This document shows positions 12,445 to 24,615 of a stretch of DNA of 39,524 bases, piece by piece. The notes beneath the pieces are model-generated. The model had not been told where the DNA came from. It worked only from the letters and a program-made list of their open reading frames with translations, and searched no databases. How positions within the stretch are numbered: the stretch's first letter is position 1; each line of letters opens with the position of its first letter. The translations under genes and the position numbers were made by a program. Source of the DNA: Halonatronum saccharophilum DSM 13868 (lineage in GTDB: Bacteria; Bacillota; Halanaerobiia; Halobacteroidales; Halobacteroidaceae); contig NZ_KI912094.1 in assembly GCF_000517025.1 (NCBI RefSeq), positions 297,334-336,857 on the forward strand, written 5' to 3'.

Positions 12445-12531
12445 TGGTGCCGAGAGTGGGACTCGAACCCACACGGACAATTGTCCATAGCGCCCTCAAC
12501 ACTACGCGTCTGCCAGTTCCGCCACCTCGGC
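12445..12531 (-). tRNA. tRNA-Leu (anticodon GAG), CCA encoded
   Basis: It starts GCCGAGGTGGCGGAACTGGC. The anticodon arm is TAGTG-TTGAGGG-CGCTA, giving anticodon GAG. A long variable arm (GGACAATTGTCC) marks a class II tRNA. The T-arm GTGGGTTCGAGTCCCAC and acceptor end CTCGGCACCA complete the fold. Confidence 0.97.
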
Positions 12532-12579: not shown

Positions 12580-12602
12580 TAGTAGTTAGTTTCTAACTAC
12601 TA
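12580..12602 (-). terminator. Hairpin at the stop codon of the regulator gene
   Basis: TAGTAGTTAG-AAA-CTAACTACTA on the minus strand is a perfect 10-bp stem that includes the TAG stop. It has no T-run, so it may be an mRNA 3'-end stabiliser rather than a true terminator. Confidence 0.5.
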
Positions 12603-13280
12603 CACTACCAATTCTCCTGGAAATACTAGTTGAATACTATTAGCATCAAAGTAATAGTTCTCAATACCTATTGGCATCTTATCTATTAGTATTACACGTT
12701 GGCTCTTTACTATTGGATCGCTATCTTGTAATGATAACTGAGAAGAGATTATCGGATTACCCCTCTCTACTTGTACTACATTATTTCTAAACTTAAACCC
12801 TTCGATCCCCTTATTACCAAACAATTCATACAGAGATTCTAAATCAGCTATCCTCTCTTCATTAATGTCAGAACTTAAATAAGTGATAATCTCTTGTATG
12901 CTATAAGGTGCTCCATCAACAAATTTGGTCTGAACTATCTTATATAATTCCTCTTTTGGGTTTCTTTTAACCAACTCTCTAAACTGCAGGTTATCAACCC
13001 TTTTCAAGTTAATCTTACCTACATTTATTTCACCCTTATCCTTTAGCAACTTTACCGTTGCCTTTTGTAAGTTAGCCCCTTTTACTGCTAAACGCTCTTC
13101 CATATTTCTTGCATACTTCTCCCTTAGATCCATTAATGATATGTTAGCTTCGGATAAGATTGTTCTTACATACCTAGGTGTAGTCTCAACATTCTCAGCT
13201 ATGTCACTTATCTTGAGAAAAGGATCATGACGAGCAAAATTAATAATCTGTTCTTTTTTAGTCAATTCTTCTAACTTCAT
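12600..13280 (-). CDS. HTH transcriptional regulator with UTRA-like C-terminal domain (regulator 1)
   Basis: The roughly 226-residue product opens MKLEELTKKEQIINFARHDP. A helix-turn-helix follows: ISDIAENVETTPRYVRTILS, then EANISLMDLREKYA. The C-terminal 110 residues, with KFVDGAPYSIQEIITYL and a last-strand pattern ENYYFDANSIQLVF, resemble a UTRA ligand-binding fold as in GntR/HutC regulators, but the N-terminus is not a standard GntR winged helix. The first 60 residues closely match the regulator at 19469. ATG 13295 overlaps the SD (GGAGGG), so ATG 13280 is used. Flanking three peptide-binding lipoproteins, it probably regulates peptide uptake; the ligand is unknown. Confidence 0.75.
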   Translation of the reverse strand: MKLEELTKKEQIINFARHDPFLKISDIAENVETTPRYVRTILSEANISLMDLREKYARNMEERLAVKGANLQKATVKLLKDKGEINVGKINLKRVDNLQFRELVKRNPKEELYKIVQTKFVDGAPYSIQEIITYLSSDINEERIADLESLYELFGNKGIEGFKFRNNVVQVERGNPIISSQLSLQDSDPIVKSQRVILIDKMPIGIENYYFDANSIQLVFPGELVV

Positions 13281-13289
13281 CTTTTTTCC

Positions 13290-13315
13290 CTCCATATTAA
13301 TATCTTTATATGGAG
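13290..13315 (-). promoter_or_regulatory. Hairpin that can sequester the regulator 1 ribosome binding site
   Basis: On the minus strand CTCCATAT and ATATGGAG are perfect 8-nt complements around a 10-nt AT loop. The second arm includes the GGAG of the Shine-Dalgarno sequence just before ATG 13280. Folding would hide the ribosome binding site, suggesting temperature- or protein-dependent translation control. Function is inference. Confidence 0.45.
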
Positions 13316-13683: not shown

Positions 13684-15318
13684 TTATTGATGATTTGGAT
13701 GTAACCATACATCTGTATATGGTAAAATTCCCGTTCCTACAACAGTATAATTATTAACAAATGGCTTAACTAAACCGACTCTAGCATAGTGATAAACTGG
13801 AATCCATGGTGCATCATCAACGATAATACTTTCAATCTCTTGATATAACTCAATACGCTCTTGGCCTGGTTCCATACCTCGAGCCCTATCTAACATCTGA
13901 TCAACCTCTGGGTTTCTATAAAATGCATCATTTCCTGCTCCACCAACATTATCAGAGTGGAATAGAGGATATAAGAAGTAATCAGCATCAGCATAAGCAG
14001 CAATCCATGCCATTCTAAACATTTCTGTGTCACCACTATCTGTCTTTTCAATATAAGTTCCCCACTCCATATTGATCAATTCAACATCTACACCGATACT
14101 CTTTAGATTCCTTTGTAATGCTTCTGCTATGCTCTGGTGAGAATCACCAGTATTATAAGCAAGTTCATAAGTTCCTGGTAACCCATCTGGATATCCCGCT
14201 TCTGCTAATAGCTCCTTAGCTTTATCTACATCAAAGCCATAACCTTCAATCTCTTCATTGTATCCAGGCATTCCTGGTGGCAAGATACCACTTGCAGGTT
14301 CTACCGTACCATTCATTAAAACATCTGCAATTGTATCTCTATTTAAAGCATAATTAATAGCTTGTCTTACTTTCTTATTATCAAAAGGTTCTACTTCATT
14401 ATTAAATCCAAAGTAATATGTCCCTAATAAAGGTACATTAATTAATTCGTCTACAAATTCATCTGCATTTAATACTCTTTGCATCTGTCCATCTGGAATA
14501 TCTCCATCAGCCATCTCATAGATATTACCTTGCTCATACTCAGCAAAGGCTGGTGATGATTCAGAAATTATTCTAAAGACAATTTCATCTAAGTAAGGTC
14601 TACCTTCTATATAGTAATCTTCATACTTTTCTAATACCAACTGATGGTCATTTCTCCAACTTGTAAATTTAAATGGTCCAGCACCTACTGGATTTCTAGT
14701 GAAATCATCTCCATACTCCTTAACTGCTTCTGGTGATACTATTGAAGCAACCTCCATTGTCAACACTGATAAGAATGGAGTAAAGGGCTCAGCAAGGGTA
14801 ATCTCTACTGTATAATCATCTAAGGCCTTAAGCCCACTTACAGCATCTACTTCTCCACTTTGGAAAGCTTGAGCTCCTTCTACTCTATCAAATAACCAAG
14901 CTCTTGGTGATTGGGTCTTTGGATCTAATATTCTACTAAAAGTAAATACTACATCATCTGCAGTTAAATGATTCCCATCATGAAAATATACATTATCTTT
15001 TAAGTAAAATGTCCAAGTTAGTGCATCATCACTGATATCCCAATCTTTAGCAATTGCAGGCACTACATTTAATTCCTCATCATATCTTACCAAACCATCA
15101 AAAATATTTCCTATAGCCTTGGTAGATGTAGTGTCTGTAGCATGGGCTGGGTCTAGGGTAGGAGGATCTGAACTTAACCTACCTTGAAATGTTCCACCAT
15201 ATCTTTGCTCTTCAGTTACTTCTTCTAATCCCACATTCTCTTGTGCAGATTCACAACCTACAAGTAAGGCAAATACTAATAGCAATGATACTGTAAAAAT
15301 AATTCTCTTCTTTAACAT
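13684..15318 (-). CDS. Peptide ABC transporter substrate-binding lipoprotein, family 5 (SBP1)
   Basis: This DppA/OppA-type (SBP_bac_5) receptor has 544 residues. Its lipoprotein signal ends FALLVGC, with lipidated Cys. Family motifs follow: RLSSDPPTLDPAHATDTTST, then WTFYLKDNVYFHDGNHLTAD, and ARAWLF/DRVEG-type segments. It is very similar along its length to SBP3 (17418) and more distant from SBP2. It delivers peptides or similar solutes to a membrane permease, here presumably the DppBCDF encoded upstream in the cluster. SD AGGAGG precedes the ATG. Only about 40 nt separate a terminator-like hairpin from its start, so it depends on read-through or an internal promoter. Confidence 0.93.
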   Translation of the reverse strand: MLKKRIIFTVSLLLVFALLVGCESAQENVGLEEVTEEQRYGGTFQGRLSSDPPTLDPAHATDTTSTKAIGNIFDGLVRYDEELNVVPAIAKDWDISDDALTWTFYLKDNVYFHDGNHLTADDVVFTFSRILDPKTQSPRAWLFDRVEGAQAFQSGEVDAVSGLKALDDYTVEITLAEPFTPFLSVLTMEVASIVSPEAVKEYGDDFTRNPVGAGPFKFTSWRNDHQLVLEKYEDYYIEGRPYLDEIVFRIISESSPAFAEYEQGNIYEMADGDIPDGQMQRVLNADEFVDELINVPLLGTYYFGFNNEVEPFDNKKVRQAINYALNRDTIADVLMNGTVEPASGILPPGMPGYNEEIEGYGFDVDKAKELLAEAGYPDGLPGTYELAYNTGDSHQSIAEALQRNLKSIGVDVELINMEWGTYIEKTDSGDTEMFRMAWIAAYADADYFLYPLFHSDNVGGAGNDAFYRNPEVDQMLDRARGMEPGQERIELYQEIESIIVDDAPWIPVYHYARVGLVKPFVNNYTVVGTGILPYTDVWLHPNHQ

Positions 15319-15467: not shown

Positions 15468-17105
15468 TTATTGGTAATCTGGATGTAACCAGACATCTGT
15501 CAATCTAGCTTCTTCTCCACGGGCAGTTACATCAAAATCATTAACGAAAGGCTTTAACAATACCAAGTTAGAATAATGATAGATAGGTATCCAAGGCGCA
15601 TCATCTACAAGTCTTCTATTAATCTGCGCATATAACTCTTCTCTCTCTTCTCCTGGAAGCATACCTCTACCCTTATCTAACATCTCATCAATCTCTGGAA
15701 CATCATAATAAGGACTATTAGTTCCTCCTATATTAATAGAATGAAAGTTATTATACAAGAAATTATCAGGGTCTGGATAACTAGCAACCCAACCCAACCT
15801 AAACATCTCAGAATCTCCACTTTCTATCTTCTCTAAATAGGTACCCCATTCTAAATTCAATAGCTCTACATCAACACCAATCCCTCTTAAACTAGCTTGC
15901 AATGCTTCTGCAACATTTTGATGTGCATCACTAGTATTATAAGCTAATTCATAAGTTCCTGGCAATCCATCTGGATAACCTGCTTCTGCTAATAAATCTT
16001 TTGCCTTTTCAGGATTATAACTATAACCTTCCAAGTCATCTTCATATCCAACCATTCCTGGAGGCAATACACCAGTAGCTGGTTTTACTGTTCCATTCAT
16101 TATTACATCAACAATGGTATCTCTATTCACAGCATAATTAATAGCTTGGCGTACCTTCTTATTATCGAAAGGTTTTGATGTCACATTAAACCCAAAATAA
16201 TAAGTTCCTAACCTTGGCTCTAAGATTAATTCTTCAATGAATTCATCAGAGTGTACTACACGCTGCATTTCACCATCAGGAATATCTCCATCAACAATCT
16301 CATATATATTACCTTGCTCATACTCTGCAAAAGCTGCAGCAGATTCTGAAACTACTCTAAAGACGATCTTATCTAAATAAGGGCGCCCCTCTATATGATA
16401 ATTTTGATTCTTCTCTAATACAATTTGATGATCACTTTGCCAATCTATAAATTCAAAAGGACCTGTCCCGACTGGATTTTGTGCAAAATTGTCACCATAG
16501 GTTTCAACAGCCTCTTGCGAAACAATTGATCCACTAGCTACTGCTAATATAGATAAAAATGGTGTGAAAGGCTCTTCTAATGTAATTTCTAAAGTATAAT
16601 CATCTAGAGCTTTTAACCCGGGTACATAATCAATCTTTCCTTCACGAAAATCTTCTGCCCCTTCTATCCTCACATAATAACCAGAACGCTGAGATTGTGT
16701 CTTTGGATCTAAAATTCTAGTATAAGTGTAAACAGCATCTTCAGCAGTAAAATGATTTCCATCATGGAAATAAACATCATCTCTTAAATCAAAAGTCCAA
16801 ACTAATCCATCATCACTTATATCCCAATCTGTAGCAAGACCAGGAACAATCTCTGAATCCCCTTCAAACTCTACTAATCGATCAAAGATATTTTCAATTA
16901 CCCTAGACGATGTACTATCTGTAGAACGAGCAGGATCTAAAGTAGGTGCATCAGAAGCTAATCTAGCATAATACGTTCCACCATACCTATCTCCCTCACT
17001 TACCTCTCTTAAATCTTCACTTTGATCTTGAGCTCCACAACCAACCAAAACCACTAAAGCTAAAACTAAAGTCAAAACACTTAAAATACTTCTTTTTCTT
17101 AACAT
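15468..17105 (-). CDS. Peptide ABC transporter substrate-binding lipoprotein, family 5 (SBP2)
   Basis: This 545-residue SBP_bac_5 protein has a lipoprotein signal ending LVVLVGC. It contains RLASDAPTLDPARSTDSTSS and WTFDLRDDVYFHDGNHFTAE, the equivalents of SBP1/SBP3 motifs with many substitutions. The ligand-facing regions differ most (YYVRIEGAEDFREGKIDYVP against the SBP1/SBP3 form), suggesting a different peptide preference. SD GGAGGAAGT is shared exactly with SBP3, as is the adjoining leader sequence. It has its own promoter (17330-17358) and a leader of about 218 nt with palindromic repeats. Confidence 0.93.
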   Translation of the reverse strand: MLRKRSILSVLTLVLALVVLVGCGAQDQSEDLREVSEGDRYGGTYYARLASDAPTLDPARSTDSTSSRVIENIFDRLVEFEGDSEIVPGLATDWDISDDGLVWTFDLRDDVYFHDGNHFTAEDAVYTYTRILDPKTQSQRSGYYVRIEGAEDFREGKIDYVPGLKALDDYTLEITLEEPFTPFLSILAVASGSIVSQEAVETYGDNFAQNPVGTGPFEFIDWQSDHQIVLEKNQNYHIEGRPYLDKIVFRVVSESAAAFAEYEQGNIYEIVDGDIPDGEMQRVVHSDEFIEELILEPRLGTYYFGFNVTSKPFDNKKVRQAINYAVNRDTIVDVIMNGTVKPATGVLPPGMVGYEDDLEGYSYNPEKAKDLLAEAGYPDGLPGTYELAYNTSDAHQNVAEALQASLRGIGVDVELLNLEWGTYLEKIESGDSEMFRLGWVASYPDPDNFLYNNFHSINIGGTNSPYYDVPEIDEMLDKGRGMLPGEEREELYAQINRRLVDDAPWIPIYHYSNLVLLKPFVNDFDVTARGEEARLTDVWLHPDYQ

Positions 17106-17200: not shown

Positions 17201-17248
17201 ATATACTTACTTATATAAGTCATTATATAAGTAAGTATATAAGTAAGT
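17201..17248. promoter_or_regulatory. Palindromic/tandem ACTTATATAAGT array in the SBP2 leader
   Basis: 16-bp perfect arms, ATATACTTACTTATAT and ATATAAGTAAGTATAT, surround AAGTCATT. Within it ACTTATATAAGT (17209-17220) is a 12-bp perfect palindrome, and ATATAAGTAAGT occurs twice in tandem (17225-17248). AATGACTTATATAAGT is identical to the SBP3 leader. It is a candidate operator or RNA regulatory hairpin. Confidence 0.6.
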
Positions 17249-17329
17249 ATTTAATATTTATATCTAAATTGATTCAGCAATTAAAATTAAGCCTACTCCC
17301 TACAACAAAACTAACAAAAACCATTATTA

Positions 17330-17358
17330 ATTTTATCAATAAAAACAAAAGATGTCAA
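17330..17358 (-). promoter_or_regulatory. Promoter of SBP2, overlapping the upstream palindrome
   Basis: On the minus strand TTGACA (17358-17353), 17 bp, then TAAAAT (17335-17330). The -35 lies inside the distal arm of the 44-bp palindrome at 17350-17393. Predicted start near 17323. Confidence 0.75.
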
Positions 17359-17393
17359 CTTTTTTAGAGAATTCTCTAAAAAAGTTGACATCT
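17350..17393 (-). terminator. 44-bp perfect palindrome after SBP3: terminator and possible operator
   Basis: AGATGTCAACTTTTTTAGAG and its exact complement meet at GAATTC with no loop. It starts 25 bp past the SBP3 stop and is followed on the minus strand by TTTTGTTTTTATT. It can end SBP3 transcription. Because it contains the SBP2 -35, a bound protein could also repress SBP2. Confidence 0.75.
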
Positions 17394-17417
17394 AATGTTA
17401 AATGTAGGATTATTTAA

Positions 17418-19055
17418 TTATTGGTGATCTGGATCTAACCACACTTCAGTTAATGGGAATTCACCAGTAGCACCCATAAAATAATTATTAACAAAAGGCT
17501 TCACTAAACCAACACGAGCATAGTGATAAACTGGAATCCATGGTGCATCATCAACAATGATTCTCTCTGCTTCTTGATAAAGCTCAACTCTATCTTCACC
17601 TGGCTCCATACCTCTAGCTTTATCTAACATTTCATCAATCTCTGAGTTACTATAGAAAGCACCATTTCCACCTGGTCCTGCATTTGATGAATGAAATAGC
17701 GGATGTAAGAAGTAATCGGCATCAGCATAAGCTGCAATCCAACCTAATCTAAACATCTCAGTATCACCATCATCAACCTTTTCTATATAAGTTCCCCATT
17801 CCATATTAATTAATTCAACATCTACACCTATACTCTTTAGATTTCTCTGTAATGCTTCTGCGATACTTTGGTGAGTATCATCAGTATTATAAGCTAACTC
17901 ATAAGTTCCTGGCAATCCATCAGGGTACCCCGCTTCTGCCAATAACTCTTTAGCTCTGTCTACATCAAAGTTATATCCTTCAATTTCATCATTATATCCT
18001 GGCATTCCTGGTGGCAAGATACCCCTTGCTGGAGTAACCGTACCATTCATTAAAACATCTGCAATTATATCTCTATTAATTGCAAAGTTCATAGCTTGCC
18101 TTACTTTTTTATCGTTAAATGGTTCTACCTCTGTATTAAACCCAAAGTAATAAGTTCCTAATGTTGGAACATTGATTAACTCTTCTGAAAATTCATCAGA
18201 AGTTAATACCCTTTGCATCTGTCCATCAGGAATATCTCCATCTGCCATCTCATAAATGTTACCTTGCTCATACTCAGCAAAGGCCGGAGATGATTCAGAG
18301 ATTATTCTAAATACTACTTCATCTAAATAAGGAAGGCCATCAATATAATAATTTTCATTTTTAACCAATTCTAGTTGGTGATCATTTCTCCAACTTACAA
18401 ACTCAAATGGCCCAGCACCTATTGGATTTCTAGTAAAGTCATCTCCATACTCCTTAGCTGCCTCTGGGGATACTATTGAAGCAACCTCCATAGTTAACAC
18501 TGATAAGAATGGAGTAAATGGCTCAGCAAGAGTAATCTCTACTGTATAATCATCAAGCGCCTTAAGACCACTTACAGCATCTGCTTCTCCATTTTGGAAA
18601 GCTTCTGCTCCTTCTACTCTATCAAATAACCAAGCACGTGGTGACTGTGTTTTTGGATCTAATATTCTACTAAAAGAATATACAACATCATCAGCAGTTA
18701 GATGATTTCCATCATGGAAATATACATTATCTCTTAAATAAAATGTCCAAGTTAAGGAATCATCACTAATATCCCAATCCTTAGCAATTGCAGGTACTAC
18801 ATTCAGATCTTCATCATACCTTACTAAGCCATCAAAAATATTATCAATAGCTTTAGTTGATGTAGTATCTGTTGCATGAGCTGGATCTAATGTAGGAGGG
18901 TCTGAACTTAACCTTCCCATATAAGTTCCACCATACCTTTGATCTTCTGCTATCTGACTTTCTTCTTTAACCTCTTCTTGACCTCCACAACCAACAAGAA
19001 TAACTAGCATTAATACTAATGCTATACTCATTAAAAAACCTTTTCTTTTAAACAT
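17418..19055 (-). CDS. Peptide ABC transporter substrate-binding lipoprotein, family 5 (SBP3)
   Basis: This 545-residue SBP_bac_5 lipoprotein has a signal ending MLVILVGC followed by Gly-Gly. RLSSDPPTLDPAHATDTTST and SPRAWLFDRVEGAEAF match SBP1 almost exactly, which indicates a recent duplication; the C-terminal 60 residues differ more. It is the first of three tandem binding-protein genes and lies directly after regulator 2. Expression is probably from the consensus promoter at 19373-19401 through a leader of about 311 nt. It most likely serves the DppBCDF transporter of the same cluster, or acts as a peptide sensor. Confidence 0.93.
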   Translation of the reverse strand: MFKRKGFLMSIALVLMLVILVGCGGQEEVKEESQIAEDQRYGGTYMGRLSSDPPTLDPAHATDTTSTKAIDNIFDGLVRYDEDLNVVPAIAKDWDISDDSLTWTFYLRDNVYFHDGNHLTADDVVYSFSRILDPKTQSPRAWLFDRVEGAEAFQNGEADAVSGLKALDDYTVEITLAEPFTPFLSVLTMEVASIVSPEAAKEYGDDFTRNPIGAGPFEFVSWRNDHQLELVKNENYYIDGLPYLDEVVFRIISESSPAFAEYEQGNIYEMADGDIPDGQMQRVLTSDEFSEELINVPTLGTYYFGFNTEVEPFNDKKVRQAMNFAINRDIIADVLMNGTVTPARGILPPGMPGYNDEIEGYNFDVDRAKELLAEAGYPDGLPGTYELAYNTDDTHQSIAEALQRNLKSIGVDVELINMEWGTYIEKVDDGDTEMFRLGWIAAYADADYFLHPLFHSSNAGPGGNGAFYSNSEIDEMLDKARGMEPGEDRVELYQEAERIIVDDAPWIPVYHYARVGLVKPFVNNYFMGATGEFPLTEVWLDPDHQ

Positions 19056-19143
19056 ATCTACTACTTCCTCCTCTAATACTTTTTGTACTTTAAATTTAAA
19101 TATACTAAACTACTCAATTAAATACGATTAAAAACATAACTTG

Positions 19144-19159
19144 TGACTTATATAAGTCA
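19144..19159. promoter_or_regulatory. 16-bp palindrome in the SBP3 leader
   Basis: TGACTTATATAAGTCA is a perfect palindrome centred about 96 nt before the SBP3 start. In SBP2 the matching palindrome is centred about 109 nt before the start. Sequences downstream (AATCGT, AGTAGTTTAGTAT, AGTATTAGAGGAGG) are also shared by the two leaders. Confidence 0.6.
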
Positions 19160-19213
19160 TTTACAGAGTTGAAAAAATAATTTGAAGCAATTTAGTAATA
19201 AACAAAATAATAA

Positions 19214-19239
19214 TATCCTAAACTTTTAAGTTCAGGATA
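19214..19239 (-). promoter_or_regulatory. Hairpin within the SBP3 leader
   Basis: TATCCT-a-AACTT pairs with AAGTT-c-AGGATA around TT. On the minus strand it is followed by TTATTATTTTG, a poor T-run. It lies between the promoter and the gene, so it could be an attenuator, or a late terminator of regulator 2. The rest of 19056-19468 shows only AT-rich leader. Confidence 0.45.
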
Positions 19240-19372
19240 CTTAGCACACACCTTTAAAGAGATTAATCCTTTTATTAGAATTTATCTACTCACTACTAAA
19301 CTATCCATACTGCACTTATATACTCAAATATCTTCTTATTTTTTATAAATTCTAAAATAATATATATTAATA

Positions 19373-19401
19373 ATTATACTAGATTTAATTAGAGCTGTCA
19401 A
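19373..19401 (-). promoter_or_regulatory. Consensus promoter of SBP3
   Basis: On the minus strand TTGACA (19401-19396), a 17-bp spacer and TATAAT (19378-19373). Predicted start near 19366 gives a leader of about 311 nt. Confidence 0.85.
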
Positions 19402-19468
19402 GAACCCGATGTGGTAAGTAATGTGATAAATCCCATAATTAAACTATCAACCTAGATTTAAGATCTTT

Positions 19469-20140
19469 TTAACTACATTTGACTACTTTAAACTTATTTT
19501 TACTCTTCGTCAAAATAAGTTCCATCTTATCTGGATTCAAGTATATTATATCTTGACCCACCAAACGACCAGATAGTGATATATCCTTTTCCAAAACTAA
19601 TAAAAATCTACTTCCTTCTAAGTATTTTGTTAAATCATTTTTAGCTTCTTCAATCCTTATCTTTAAATCAGATATCTTTACATCTCTTCGCTCTCTAAAA
19701 CGATGAAAATCTTTAACCCCATATTTAGAAAGAAGAAAGATTGTATTTAGCATAATAGGTAAGCCATCTTCTTTAAATAAAACAGACTTCTCTAGAGAAT
19801 CTTTCTTTTTCTTTACTATATCTTGATATTTACTATAATCATTTAATATCAAAGAATCTTGTACTATCCCCTTTAATCCTCCAGAATCTTCAGCTTTGAA
19901 TAGATCCAATAAGAGCTCATTTTGCCTACTTCTATTCCCATTACTTTTGGCATATTCTCTTCTTAGCTTGGTAAGCGATAAATTAGCCTCGGAAAGAACT
20001 GTCCTGACATAATGGGCTGTCGTTTCGGCAAGTTGAGCTATTCTATCAACCTTTAAGAAAGGATCCTTTTTTGCCAAATAGACAACGCGCTCTTTTTTGG
20101 TCAAATCATACAAAATATACTCCTCTACTAATTTACTCAT
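19469..20140 (-). CDS. HTH transcriptional regulator with diverged C-terminal domain (regulator 2)
   Basis: The 223-residue product has LTKKERVVYLAKKDPFLKVD then RIAQLAETTAHYVRTVLSEA and NLSLTKLRREYA, clearly paralogous to regulator 1 (shared LTKKE, DPFLK, ETT, YVRT, LSEAN, LR..YA). The C-terminal domain is far more diverged. It keeps only a faint UTRA-like outline (FKEDGLPIMLNTIFLLSKYG, closing strand QDIIYLNPDKMELIL) and adds basic patches such as KKKKDS and RFRERRDVK. ATG 20140 is preferred over the upstream ATG 20167 because AAGGAGG is spaced 8 nt before it. It sits between the dpp operon and the SBP genes, so local control of peptide uptake is the natural inference. Confidence 0.75.
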   Translation of the reverse strand: MSKLVEEYILYDLTKKERVVYLAKKDPFLKVDRIAQLAETTAHYVRTVLSEANLSLTKLRREYAKSNGNRSRQNELLLDLFKAEDSGGLKGIVQDSLILNDYSKYQDIVKKKKDSLEKSVLFKEDGLPIMLNTIFLLSKYGVKDFHRFRERRDVKISDLKIRIEEAKNDLTKYLEGSRFLLVLEKDISLSGRLVGQDIIYLNPDKMELILTKSKNKFKVVKCS

Positions 20141-20285
20141 TGAATTGACCTCCTTAAAATAGAACATCCTAAAATTAAATATTTAAAATACTAAGAGTTG
20201 AATTATTCTCTTTTTAATTTTAATGACTAGCATTGATCTAAATACTAATCTAAAATTCTCCACTACTCCAAAATTATCATTAACA

Positions 20286-20297
20286 ACTTATATAAAT
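20286..20297. promoter_or_regulatory. Degraded copy of the ACTTATATAAGT motif before regulator 2
   Basis: ACTTATATAAAT lies about 150 nt before the regulator 2 start and just downstream of its promoter. It matches the SBP2/SBP3 palindrome at 11 of 12 positions. AT-rich surroundings weaken the case. Confidence 0.35.
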
Positions 20298-20312
20298 TCA
20301 TCTTTAAAAATA

Positions 20313-20341
20313 ATTATAATCTAAAACCCTTTGTTTGTCAA
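20313..20341 (-). promoter_or_regulatory. Consensus promoter of regulator 2
   Basis: On the minus strand TTGACA (20341-20336), a 17-bp spacer and TATAAT (20318-20313), starting immediately after the dpp operon terminator. The leader is about 166 nt. Confidence 0.85.
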
Positions 20342-20386: not shown

Positions 20387-21355
20387 TTAATCCACTAAAT
20401 GGCAAGCTGCAAAATGATCCTTATCCTTTTCTTCAAACTTAGGAACCTCTTTTTTACAAATGTCTGTAGCAAAAGGACACCTAGTATGGAAAGGACATCC
20501 TGAAGGAGGGTTTATTGGACTTGGAACATCTCCTTCTAGTATAATCTTTTCTCTTTTAATTTCAGGATCTGGTATTGGAATAGCAGATAATAAAGCCTTC
20601 GTATAAGGATGCTTAGGGTTACTATAAAGTTCATCCTTATCTGCCAATTCTACCATCTTTCCTAAATACATTACTGCAACCCTATCACTAATATGACGAA
20701 CGACACTTAGATCATGGGCGATAAAGATATAAGTTAAGCCAAATTCTTCTTGAATATCTTGCATCAAGTTAACCACTTGAGCCTGTACGGATACATCAAG
20801 TGCAGATACTGGTTCATCACAAACGATTACCTTAGGATTAACTGCTAAAGCACGAGCAATCCCAACTCTTTGGCGTTGACCCCCACTAAATTCATGCGGG
20901 TATCTATTAGCATAATTTCTTGGCAAGCCAACCTTCTCTAAAAGATCTCTCACCTTTTCTTTTCTTTCTGCTTTAGTACCTATATTATGAATCTTCATCG
21001 GTTCAGATATAATCTTCTCAACGGTCATTCTAGGGTTCAAGGAAGCATAAGGATCTTGGAAGATCATCTGCATATCCTTTCTTAACCTTCTCATCTCTTC
21101 TTTGCCAGCTTTATGAATATCTGTTCCTTGGAAGACAACTTTACCCTCTGTTGCGTCTAATAAACGTAATAATAAGCGACCAGTAGTTGATTTGCCACAA
21201 CCTGATTCACCTACTAAACCTAAAGTCTCACCTCTTTTAACATCAAAATCCAAACCATCTACAGCTTTAACAGAGTTTACCTCTCTACCGAAAATTCCAC
21301 CCTTAATAGGAAAATGCTTCTTTAAATTTCTTACCTTTAATATCACATCATCCAT
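20387..21355 (-). CDS. dppF: Peptide ABC transporter ATP-binding protein, DppF/OppF
   Basis: This second ATPase of the peptide importer has Walker [11 protein letters not shown]-loop [17 protein letters not shown], signature [15 protein letters not shown], Walker [13 protein letters not shown] and H-loop FIAHDLSVV. The C-terminal OppD/F extension carries the cysteine pattern [14 protein letters not shown], seen in members that bind an Fe-S cluster. GTG 21364 overlaps the SD AGGAGG; ATG 21355 is better spaced, giving 322 residues. It is the last gene of dppBCDF, with 12 nt separating it from dppD. It heterodimerises with DppD to energise DppBC. Confidence 0.94.
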
Positions 21356-21367
21356 TACTTTCACCTC

Positions 21368-22354
21368 CTACTTCTTTAAATCTAAATTTTCCCATCTATG
21401 ACACCTTACATCATGACCTTTTTCCGCCTTCTCTAATTGCGGCTCTTTAGTCATACATTCATCTGTTGCAAAAGGACATCTATTAGCAAACTTGCACCCT
21501 TCAGGAAAACTGAAAGGATCTGGTACATTTCCTTCAATCGGTTCTAATCTACCACTATCACCTTCTAAAGTCGGAATTGAGTTTATCAATCCAGCAGTAT
21601 AAGGGTGTTTTGGATTCTTAAATAGAGTCTTTACATCAGTCTGCTCTACAACTCTACCACCATACATAACTGCTACTTTATCTGCAACTTCAGCAATAAC
21701 ACCCAAGTCATGAGTTATCAACATAATAGCAGTATTGAACTCATCTCTTAACTCTCTCATTAGCTCTAGTATCTGAGCTTGTATAGTTACATCTAAAGCT
21801 GTAGTTGGCTCATCAGCTATTAATAATTCTGGATTACAAGATAAAGCCATTGCTATCATAACCCTCTGGCGCATACCACCAGATAATTGATGAGGATGTT
21901 CATGTACTCTATCTTCTGGAGCTGGGATACCAACTTTCTCTAGCATACCTACTGCTTTTTTTAAAGCTTCCTTTTTATCTAGACCTTGGTGTAACTGTAT
22001 AGCTTCTGCTATCTGATCACCAATTGTATAAACAGGGTTTAGAGATGTCATTGGTTCCTGGAAGATCATAGCTATCTCATTTCCCCTTATCTTTCTAAAT
22101 TCATCCATTGATTTATTTAATATATTCTCACCCTTAAATAATATCTCTCCATCGACAATCTTTCCTGGAGGAGTAGGGATTAGTCTCATTACTGAAGAAG
22201 ATGTTACACTTTTTCCTGATCCAGACTCTCCTACTATACCTAGGGTTTCACCTTTATTTATACTAAAACTTACCCCATCAACAGCCTTTACTACACCCTT
22301 ATTTATAAAAAAGTGGGTCTTTAGATTATTTACTTCCAATATCTTTTCACTCAT
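21368..22354 (-). CDS. dppD: Peptide ABC transporter ATP-binding protein, DppD/OppD
   Basis: The 328-residue ATPase has Walker [10 protein letters not shown]-loop [18 protein letters not shown], signature [15 protein letters not shown], Walker [13 protein letters not shown] and H-loop LITHDLGVI. The OppD-type C-terminal domain has [14 protein letters not shown] plus a final Cys-His pair, the Fe-S or zinc-binding cysteine cluster of this subfamily. SD GGAGG lies before ATG 22354, 13 nt after dppC. It works as a heterodimer with DppF at the inner face of the membrane. Confidence 0.94.
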
Positions 22355-22367
22355 CTTCTCACCTCCA

Positions 22368-23285
22368 TTAATCCTTCATCTTAGGATCTAATACATCTCT
22401 TAATCCATCACCAAATAGGTTCAAGCCTAAAATCGTAATCATAATAGCCAATCCTGGGAACCACATCATATATGGATTACTCCTTAGATATGCTCTACCA
22501 GTACTTAACATTAATCCCCAACTTGGAGTCGGTGGCTGAGCACCTAAACCTAAGAAACTCAATCCTGCTTCAGCTAAGATAGCACCTGCTACTCCTAATG
22601 TAACTGTTACTATAATCGGGGCTAAACAATTTGGTATAACGTGTAAGAATATAATTCTAGCATCATTAGCACCTAGTGATTTAGCCGCTTCAATATATTC
22701 TTCTTCTTTCAAAGCCATAACCTGTCCCCTAACTATACGGGCCAACCCTGGCCAACTTATAATACCCAAAGCAATAAATACTTTATCAATACCTGGATCT
22801 TGAAATACTGACATAATAGCTATCGCAAATAGGATAAAGGGAAAAGCCAGGAAAACATTGATTAGATATGATATTATTTCATCTACCCAACCACCATAGT
22901 ATCCTGCCAAGGCTCCTAAAGGAATACCTATACTCAAAGCAATCATCTGAGTAATTATACCTACCATTAATGATATCCTCGTACCATAGACAACTCTACT
23001 AAACAAATCACGACCTAATCTATCAGTACCAAAGGGATAATTCCATGTTGGCCCGATTAGTGATAACTCTGTTCTACCATCCTCCATAACAGGAGAGTAA
23101 AAAGGATCATGTGGAGCAATAAAAGGAGCAAATACTGCAACTATAACAACAGCAACCATTATTACTAATCCAATCATAGCCATCTTGTTTTTCTTTAGCC
23201 TACGCCAAGCATCCTTCCAAGGGCTTTCTACTTTAGCCTCAGGAAGGTTTATATTCTCTTCAATTTCTGTATTTACACTACTCAT
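22368..23285 (-). CDS. dppC: Peptide ABC transporter permease, DppC
   Basis: This inner-membrane permease has the characteristic DppC start: a cytoplasmic N-tail ending WKDAWRRLKKNKMAMIGLVI, a first membrane helix, then FIAPHDPFYS and the conserved FGTDRLGRDLFSRVVYGTR. The EAA loop (EAAKSLGANDARIIFLHVIP) contacts the ATPases. ATG 23285 with SD AGGAGG is chosen over the longer frame from 23339, giving 305 residues. It pairs with DppB to form the channel. Confidence 0.94.
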   Translation of the reverse strand: MSSVNTEIEENINLPEAKVESPWKDAWRRLKKNKMAMIGLVIMVAVVIVAVFAPFIAPHDPFYSPVMEDGRTELSLIGPTWNYPFGTDRLGRDLFSRVVYGTRISLMVGIITQMIALSIGIPLGALAGYYGGWVDEIISYLINVFLAFPFILFAIAIMSVFQDPGIDKVFIALGIISWPGLARIVRGQVMALKEEEYIEAAKSLGANDARIIFLHVIPNCLAPIIVTVTLGVAGAILAEAGLSFLGLGAQPPTPSWGLMLSTGRAYLRSNPYMMWFPGLAIMITILGLNLFGDGLRDVLDPKMKD

Positions 23286-23346
23286 TTTGAACCTCCTTCT
23301 TCCTTCTTCTCTATTCTTTAGTATTTCTCTTAATCTCAATTACTTA

Positions 23347-24270
23347 TCAATCGTATCTAATTCTTGGATCTAAGACTCCATAACTTAAGTCAACCAATAA
23401 GTTTACTACAATAAAGATTGCAGCTAAAAACAATACAGTACCTTGAATCAAAGGAAAGTCCCTTCTATTAACGGCATCAATTGCCATTCTACCAACACCT
23501 GGCCAAGAGAAAGTTACCTCTGTAAGAACTGTTCCTCCAAGTAGATATCCTAACTGAGTTCCAATTACAGTTATAACTGGTATTAACGCATTTCTTAAGG
23601 CATGCTTAATAACTACAACCTTCTCAGATAAACCTTTGGCCCTAGCTGTCTTAATATAATCCTTATCTATTACCTCCAACATACTAGAACGTGTCATCCT
23701 AGCAATATGAGCAGCTTGTCTAACTCCTAAAGCTATCGCTGGGAGTACTAAGTGAGCAAAGGTTCCATATCCACCTACAGGCAGAACATTCAAATTTACT
23801 GCAAAGATTACAATCAAAATAAGTCCTAGCCAATATACGGGCATCGAGACCCCAATCATAGCTCCTGTCATAAAGAGATAATCCAGAATTGAATTTGGTT
23901 TTATGGCTGAGATTATCCCTGCTGTCACCCCTAAGAGAATGGCTATCACCATCGAACTTACTGCAAGCATTGCAGTGGCAGGTAACCTCTCCATTATCAT
24001 CTCAAAAACCGGTCTTCTTGTTGTATATGATATTCCTAAATCACCTCTAAAAATATTCCCAACAAACCTTCCATACTGAATATAAAGGGGGTCATTTAGC
24101 CCCATCTCTTCTCTTATCATCTCAATTGTAGCTGGATCCCCATGGTTACCCATAGCAATTCTTACTGGATCTCCAGGCACAAAGACAAAATTAAGCAAGA
24201 AGGTTATTGTAGCAATACCAATTAAGATTGGAACTGCCATAAAACTTTTTCTTATAATGTATGTTAGCAT
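23347..24270 (-). CDS. dppB: Peptide ABC transporter permease, DppB
   Basis: This is the first gene of the dppBCDF operon, with about six membrane segments. The N-terminal helix is followed by FVPGDPVRIAMGNHGDPATI, then LGLNDPLYIQYGRFV-type and GDLGISYTTRRPVFEMI segments, all standard for DppB/OppB. The EAA loop is TARAKGLSEKVVVIKHALRN. ATG 24270 fits the AAGGTGG SD better than GTG 24279. A consensus promoter about 350 nt upstream indicates an unusually long leader. Peptide import is family knowledge; nickel or oligosaccharide transport is possible for some relatives. Confidence 0.94.
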   Translation of the reverse strand: MLTYIIRKSFMAVPILIGIATITFLLNFVFVPGDPVRIAMGNHGDPATIEMIREEMGLNDPLYIQYGRFVGNIFRGDLGISYTTRRPVFEMIMERLPATAMLAVSSMVIAILLGVTAGIISAIKPNSILDYLFMTGAMIGVSMPVYWLGLILIVIFAVNLNVLPVGGYGTFAHLVLPAIALGVRQAAHIARMTRSSMLEVIDKDYIKTARAKGLSEKVVVIKHALRNALIPVITVIGTQLGYLLGGTVLTEVTFSWPGVGRMAIDAVNRRDFPLIQGTVLFLAAIFIVVNLLVDLSYGVLDPRIRYD

Positions 24271-24615
24271 ATTTACCACCTTTCCTTTTACATTTTTTAC
24301 CTTTATTTTCCCTTAAAAATAACCCTATCCTATTAAAAATCCAATAAAATTAGAGCTTATCTTGTTAAAAGATAATTTTTAATTTAATTAAAATAAAGAA
24401 ATGACAAACAACAGTAACCTTTATTGTATATTAACTTTTTTAAATCTATAAAAAAGCACTATACAAAAAAATAAAAACTTTAACTTAAAATACTATTAGT
24501 AAATAAGGGTTAAAGCAACAAAAAATTATCTACTCAAAAGCTACTATCAACTCCACCTCCTGCTTAGATAAATATTAGAATTTAAAATTCTTATTAAATA
24601 TTATATAAGAAGAAC
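24271..24615 (-). promoter_or_regulatory. Long dpp operon leader with possible short upstream ORF
   Basis: About 345 nt separate the predicted transcription start from dppB, with no gene. At 24561-24556 AGGAGG stands 5-6 nt before a TTG that would start a six-codon frame (24550-24530, M-I-V-A-F-E-stop). A strong SD so far from any gene is unusual. GAGTAGATAA nearby also occurs in the SBP3 leader. I see no recognised riboswitch. Confidence 0.4.

Follow-up and report, generated by a model that had tools for sequence, protein, structure and literature searches.

Repressors of the GntR/HutC type, such as NagR/YvoA, DasR, TreR and HutC, are encoded in the loci that they control and act on short palindromes, the dre and hut operators, at genes for transport and catabolism (PMC4333415). 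The locus of Halonatronum saccharophilum DSM 13868 described here has a comparable arrangement, and its two regulators have the UTRA-type effector fold in common with these repressors, but the GntR winged-helix domain of the latter was found in neither regulator. Moreover, the palindrome TGACWWAYRTWWGTCA was found at the peptide-transport regulon only, and its sequence appears to differ from that of dre sites. At the N-terminus, the best structural match, although a weak one on its own, is to the helix-turn-helix (HTH) and linker helix of FapR from Bacillus and Staphylococcus, with a similar register in hhalign, whereas the C-terminal part of the regulators is UTRA-like in place of the hot-dog malonyl-CoA domain of FapR. 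In FapR, Gln41 reads bases and Arg56 contacts the minor groove (PMC3536700). For CodY, CcpA and LacI, a repressor bound downstream of the transcription start is reported to block the elongating polymerase (PMC4132739, PMC10310618). These proteins and their sites are unrelated to those here, and for the present locus we infer a roadblock. No literature on regulator 2 or on the locus was found.

All positions refer to the window, that is, the whole stretch of 39,524 nt that was analyzed. The locus comprises the following genes:

12600 to 13295, minus strand: regulator 1, a paralogue with a UTRA domain, alternative or additional candidate binder
13684 to 15318, minus strand: SBP1, a family-5 solute-binding protein (SBP), without an operator of its own
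15468 to 17105, minus strand: SBP2, a family-5 solute-binding protein, putative target
17418 to 19055, minus strand: SBP3, a family-5 solute-binding protein, putative target
19469 to 20167 (likely start 20140), minus strand: regulator 2, with a short HTH and a UTRA-like fold, best candidate binder
20387 to 24279, minus strand: oligopeptide/dipeptide ABC transporter operon of the dppBCDF type

A search with SBP3 against the named genome contigs returned distant SBPs only. Directly downstream of regulator 1 lies a tRNA-Leu(gag) (12445–12531), and a tRNA match is found at the same place in five relatives (L051, L052, L053, L055 and L060). Upstream of regulator 1, a stretch like GTATAAAATRGCATAAGTTAGGRATAATAC is kept in the window and in L051, L052, L053, L054 and L055; it differs from the palindrome and is perhaps the promoter or operator of regulator 1 itself.

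The palindrome and its candidate copies are distributed as follows, with scores from a matrix trained on other genomes only:

19144 to 19159: putative operator TGACTTATATAAGTCA before SBP3, a perfect palindrome, 23.2 bits
17207 to 17222, minus strand: putative operator TGACTTATATAAGTAA before SBP2, one mismatch (15/16), 18.9 bits
17199 to 17248: extended inverted repeat (20-bp arms) and tandem ATATAAGTAAGT units around the SBP2 site
24402 to 24417, minus strand: diverged operator-like site TTACTGTTGTTTGTCA, about 123 nt before dppB, 12.0 bits, P ~0.009
20284 to 20299: 11/12 match before regulator 2, −0.6 bits, P 0.82, chance level

In simulation, the window maximum was 11.7 ± 1.8 bits and the top of 60 runs reached 17.0 bits, below both the SBP3 and the SBP2 site. 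The first-pass annotation had described a 16-bp perfect palindrome before SBP3, together with the same AATGACTTATATAAGT before SBP2 and SBP3 at similar distances from the start codons. All of this is borne out: the palindrome occupies 19144–19159, AATGACTTATATAAGT is identical on the coding strand, and the centres lie about 109 nt (SBP2) and 96 nt (SBP3) before the start codons. As for the expanded array reported before SBP2, the tandem ATATAAGTAAGT units are present (17225–17248), but the arms measure 20 bp in the RNA fold, not 16 bp, and a full-operator score is reached in the central register only. A degraded copy had also been listed before regulator 2, and none before dppB, SBP1 or regulator 1. 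The 11/12 letters are indeed there (about 20285–20296), but random AT-rich leaders equal them in 82% of cases, and a degraded regulator 2 operator in the window was rejected at this score. SBP1 and regulator 1 do lack a copy; dppB, on the other hand, is preceded by the diverged copy at 24402–24417, and equivalent dppB sites occur in G002, G003, G008, G009 and G012. The third-best matrix match of the window, TGACTTGTATAATTAA at 1745–1760 (13.3 bits, near the chance maximum), is followed 146 nt further on by an ABC transporter gene (at 1891) that is unrelated to dpp.

Across the 2.88-Mb genome, pattern searches with TGACTTATATAAGTCA allowing at most one mismatch returned the SBP2 and SBP3 copies only. 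With at most two mismatches there were eight places, compared to five for the reversed control, and therefore only these two copies stand out. The genome-wide search proposed by the first-pass annotation thus singles out two strong, unique copies at one mismatch, but comes close to background at two. When the consensus TGACWWAYRTWWGTCA was used with at most one mismatch, the other matches were in an RND-pump gene (C8:7977 and 9062) and at C3:187350, where the gene of an amino-acid ABC permease begins. The RND-pump segment (C8:7977–9077; L006, L007) is repeated around a run of N, probably an assembly artefact that created two spurious motif matches. At up to two mismatches, 49 consensus matches against 37 in the control gave no clear signal of further regulon members in this genome.

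Homologues of the regulators were found in 27 of the 61 genomes searched (own genome counted), usually paired beside a dpp-type operon, and the dpp–regulator 2–SBP–regulator 1 neighbourhood is conserved. Related palindromes in the loci of relatives stand before SBP genes, before dppB and, in some genomes, before regulator 2, among them GGTGACATACGTATGTCACC (SBP of G012), TGACTTATGTAAGTGA (dppB of G008) and TGACTTACATTTGTCA (dppB of G009); SBP1 and several dppB genes are without a site. The sites in the SBP leaders of G008 (L056, 7119–7151) and G012 (L058, 3189–3218) form dyads of about 30 bp whose arm sequences are unrelated.

The consensus of these sites is TGACWWAYRTWWGTCA. Since a consensus derived in this way is partly circular, two cleaner tests were made, one with the original motif, which had been set before the relatives were examined and was used unmodified, and one with leave-one-genome-out matrices. 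Allowing up to three mismatches, the original motif was present in 10 of 28 SBP/dppB upstream regions from eight other genomes, compared to a mean of 0.23 and a maximum of 2 in 200 simulations of the same dinucleotide make-up and to 0 for the reversed motif; allowing up to two, it was present in 5 of those 28 regions, with a null of 0.02. With the left-out-genome matrices, 8/8 genomes had one or more transporter genes preceded by a site (P ~0.0025, at or near the null floor); these matrices found further sites in two family-f4 genomes absent from training, and placed none before the transporter genes of genomes that have only regulator 1. In a scan of 31 genomes, the exact consensus occurred at nine places, against one for the control; five of the nine lie in the peptide-transport regulon or beside its regulator gene. 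One of these five is found a short way upstream of dppB in G009, whose regulator genes are on a different contig. For SBP/dppB homologues of regulator-free genomes, no upstream consensus match with two or fewer mismatches was seen in the loci examined. Matrix scans of more distant genomes that also encode the two regulators (f6, f8 and others) gave no convincing site, and specificity must therefore differ there.

Regulator 1 matches the UTRA family of Pfam (PF07702; 27.3 bits, cut-off 23.8), as do 20 of 29 members of the regulator family at E ≤ 1. Regulator 2 has no Pfam match; its model (pLDDT 82) contains a UTRA-like C-terminal domain, with Z scores of 9–11 to the effector domains of HutC, TreR, DasR and NagR/YvoA. 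A GntR helix-turn-helix was matched neither in regulators 1 and 2 nor in the 29 members, whose listing at E ≤ 1 comprised 25 families, and the AlphaFold models have a helical HTH without wing strands. For both models, the N-terminal HTH with its linker helix has its best structural match in DNA-bound FapR (4a12), at Z 6.4–6.5, and scores of this size may arise from a common arrangement of HTH helices; the hhalign probability against FapR is 3%, which is not significant, and sequence comparison gave no proof of kinship. A hot-dog acyl-CoA-binding domain is absent from the models, and the true FapR of this genome is encoded by a separate gene. In the hhalign register, FapR Arg56 is opposite the invariant Arg60 of the regulators and FapR Gln41 is opposite helix residue 43. 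This residue is His in 9/9 regulator 2 proteins of the f1/f2 genomes, whereas every regulator 1 protein has Arg, suggesting that the two paralogues differ in specificity. It is a lead only, as both regulators have Arg at residue 43 in one site-bearing f4 genome.

With a probability of about 0.78, the palindrome TGACWWAYRTWWGTCA is an operator to which one of the regulators of the locus, most likely regulator 2, binds as a symmetric dimer. Sites were found in 9/9 f1/f2 genomes with both regulators and in 0/4 genomes with regulator 1 only, although G004 is the sole one of these four to keep the orthologous transporter, so that the comparison holds one clean case of absence. Judged by co-occurrence, by this single clean absence and by the inference from residue 43, regulator 2 is the best candidate and a better fit than regulator 1. 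It is possible, if doubtful, that regulator 1 or a heterodimer of the two, rather than regulator 2 alone, occupies the operator: the paralogues have the helix TTxxYVRTxLSEA in common almost letter for letter, and both are present in all nine site-bearing f1/f2 genomes. However, G004 combines regulator 1 and an orthologous dpp-SBP operon with absence of the site, and Arg versus His at residue 43 again points to separate specificities. That the operator belongs to another, unlinked regulator of peptide transport appears improbable. The dppB sites of G009 and G012 do lie on contigs other than those of the regulator genes, but site occurrence tracks the regulator 2 gene (9/9 versus 0/4) and in most site-bearing genomes the regulator genes adjoin the sites.

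The first-pass annotation had left open whether the palindromes act as roadblock operators or as RNA hairpins. Several features are in line with a hairpin in the leader, be it an attenuator, a stability element or a protein-binding RNA: the palindrome falls within the 5′ leader as predicted from the promoters, a 20-bp stem forms in the fold of the SBP2 copy (z −7.6), and the dyads of G008 and G012 are followed by a T-rich tail. The SBP3 copy, on the other hand, folds little above shuffles (z −1.2), and Rfam returned no match. Moreover, the halves of the site vary independently of each other, with 66.7% of cells paired across 23 sites compared to 66.8% after shuffling; no covarying base pairs were detected above shuffles, and the inner columns 9/16, 10/15 and 12/13 are unpaired in 10–11 of the 23 sites. 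The half-sites TGACTTAT, TGACAAAC and TGACATAC are freely combined, as expected for a dimer that reads each half. In addition, the sites of G009 and G012 upstream of regulator 2 lie inside the −35/−10 spacer of its promoter, where they would stay untranscribed. Independent halves and promoter-spacer copies argue for a DNA operator contacted by a symmetric dimer, a reading that is strongly supported by these comparisons, while the RNA hairpin is disfavoured: it was rejected on half-site independence and is quite improbable. It is extremely unlikely that the palindromes are without function and reflect only an AT-rich leader that was copied when SBP genes were duplicated. The SBPs are indeed paralogues, and around the ribosome-binding site the SBP2 and SBP3 leaders are identical over another 24 nt. 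However, dppB and SBP genes of other genera are also preceded by sites, in which fixed positions are surrounded by variable sequence, and no site precedes SBP1, although it is the paralogue nearest to SBP3 (82%).

For a DNA operator, the position relative to the promoter bears on the mode of action. Predicted promoters in the window are:

17330 to 17358, minus strand: TTGACA-17-TAAAAT for SBP2, with the operator centre about 108 nt downstream of the predicted start
19373 to 19401, minus strand: TTGACA-17-TATAAT for SBP3, with the operator centre about 214 nt downstream of the predicted start
20313 to 20341, minus strand: TTGACA-17-TATAAT of regulator 2

The predicted SBP2 promoter overlaps the SBP3 terminator. 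Near-perfect TTGACA-17-TATAAT matches (11–12 of 12 positions) precede most sites, and the site centre usually lies 33–270 nt, often about 100 nt, downstream of the predicted start; these promoters are consensus matches only, and nearer, weak promoters could shift the placement. Thus, the earlier observation that the sites lie downstream of the predicted starts holds in the window and in most relatives, as far as predicted promoters go, and their position fits repression by roadblock. In the mechanism that we propose, the strong σA-type promoters would fire, and ligand-free repressor would occupy the 5′ leader and stop RNA polymerase. The repressor would be released when its UTRA-like domain binds a small molecule, which probably originates from the substrate that is transported. 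The operator would control the family-5 SBP genes and, in the own genome more weakly, dppBCDF.

Leaders of the same kinds contain a candidate second element. In G002, G003, G005, G007, G008 and G012 they include a hairpin that resembles a terminator, CTCTAAACT..AGTTTAGAG-TTTTT; its 5′ arm can pair with a stretch of the AGTAGTTTAG type located upstream. Hairpin leaders were noted for SBP2 and regulator 2 of L056, regulator 2 of L058 and L055, SBP2 of L140, and SBP1 of L153 and L141. The window has a weak member:

19212 to 19241, minus strand: terminator-like hairpin between the SBP3 promoter and the operator

For nine leaders taken together, the energy of this duplex adds up to −108, compared to −84 ± 6 in shuffled leaders; the duplex is strongest for SBP2 of G008 and not significant for the SBP3 leader of the window. 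Comparison of the leaders with Rfam gave no family match. The hairpin and the upstream stretch are a candidate transcription terminator/antiterminator, that is, an attenuator, and this element is separate from the palindrome.

The regulon and the operator are new, while the regulatory logic is ordinary. A more ambitious picture, in which paralogues with a FapR-type HTH on a UTRA sensor have specificities split by His/Arg and in which peptide uptake is controlled in two steps, through leaders that have both a roadblock operator and a terminator/antiterminator of an undescribed kind, is rather unlikely to hold in full. For a UTRA regulator family that is widespread, apparently unstudied and equipped with a non-GntR DNA-binding domain, the analysis provides a candidate regulator together with its operator and regulon, and paralogue specificity becomes testable through the swap of one helix residue. 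Should roadblock and attenuator work in concert, leader control at this locus would be layered within a compact arrangement.
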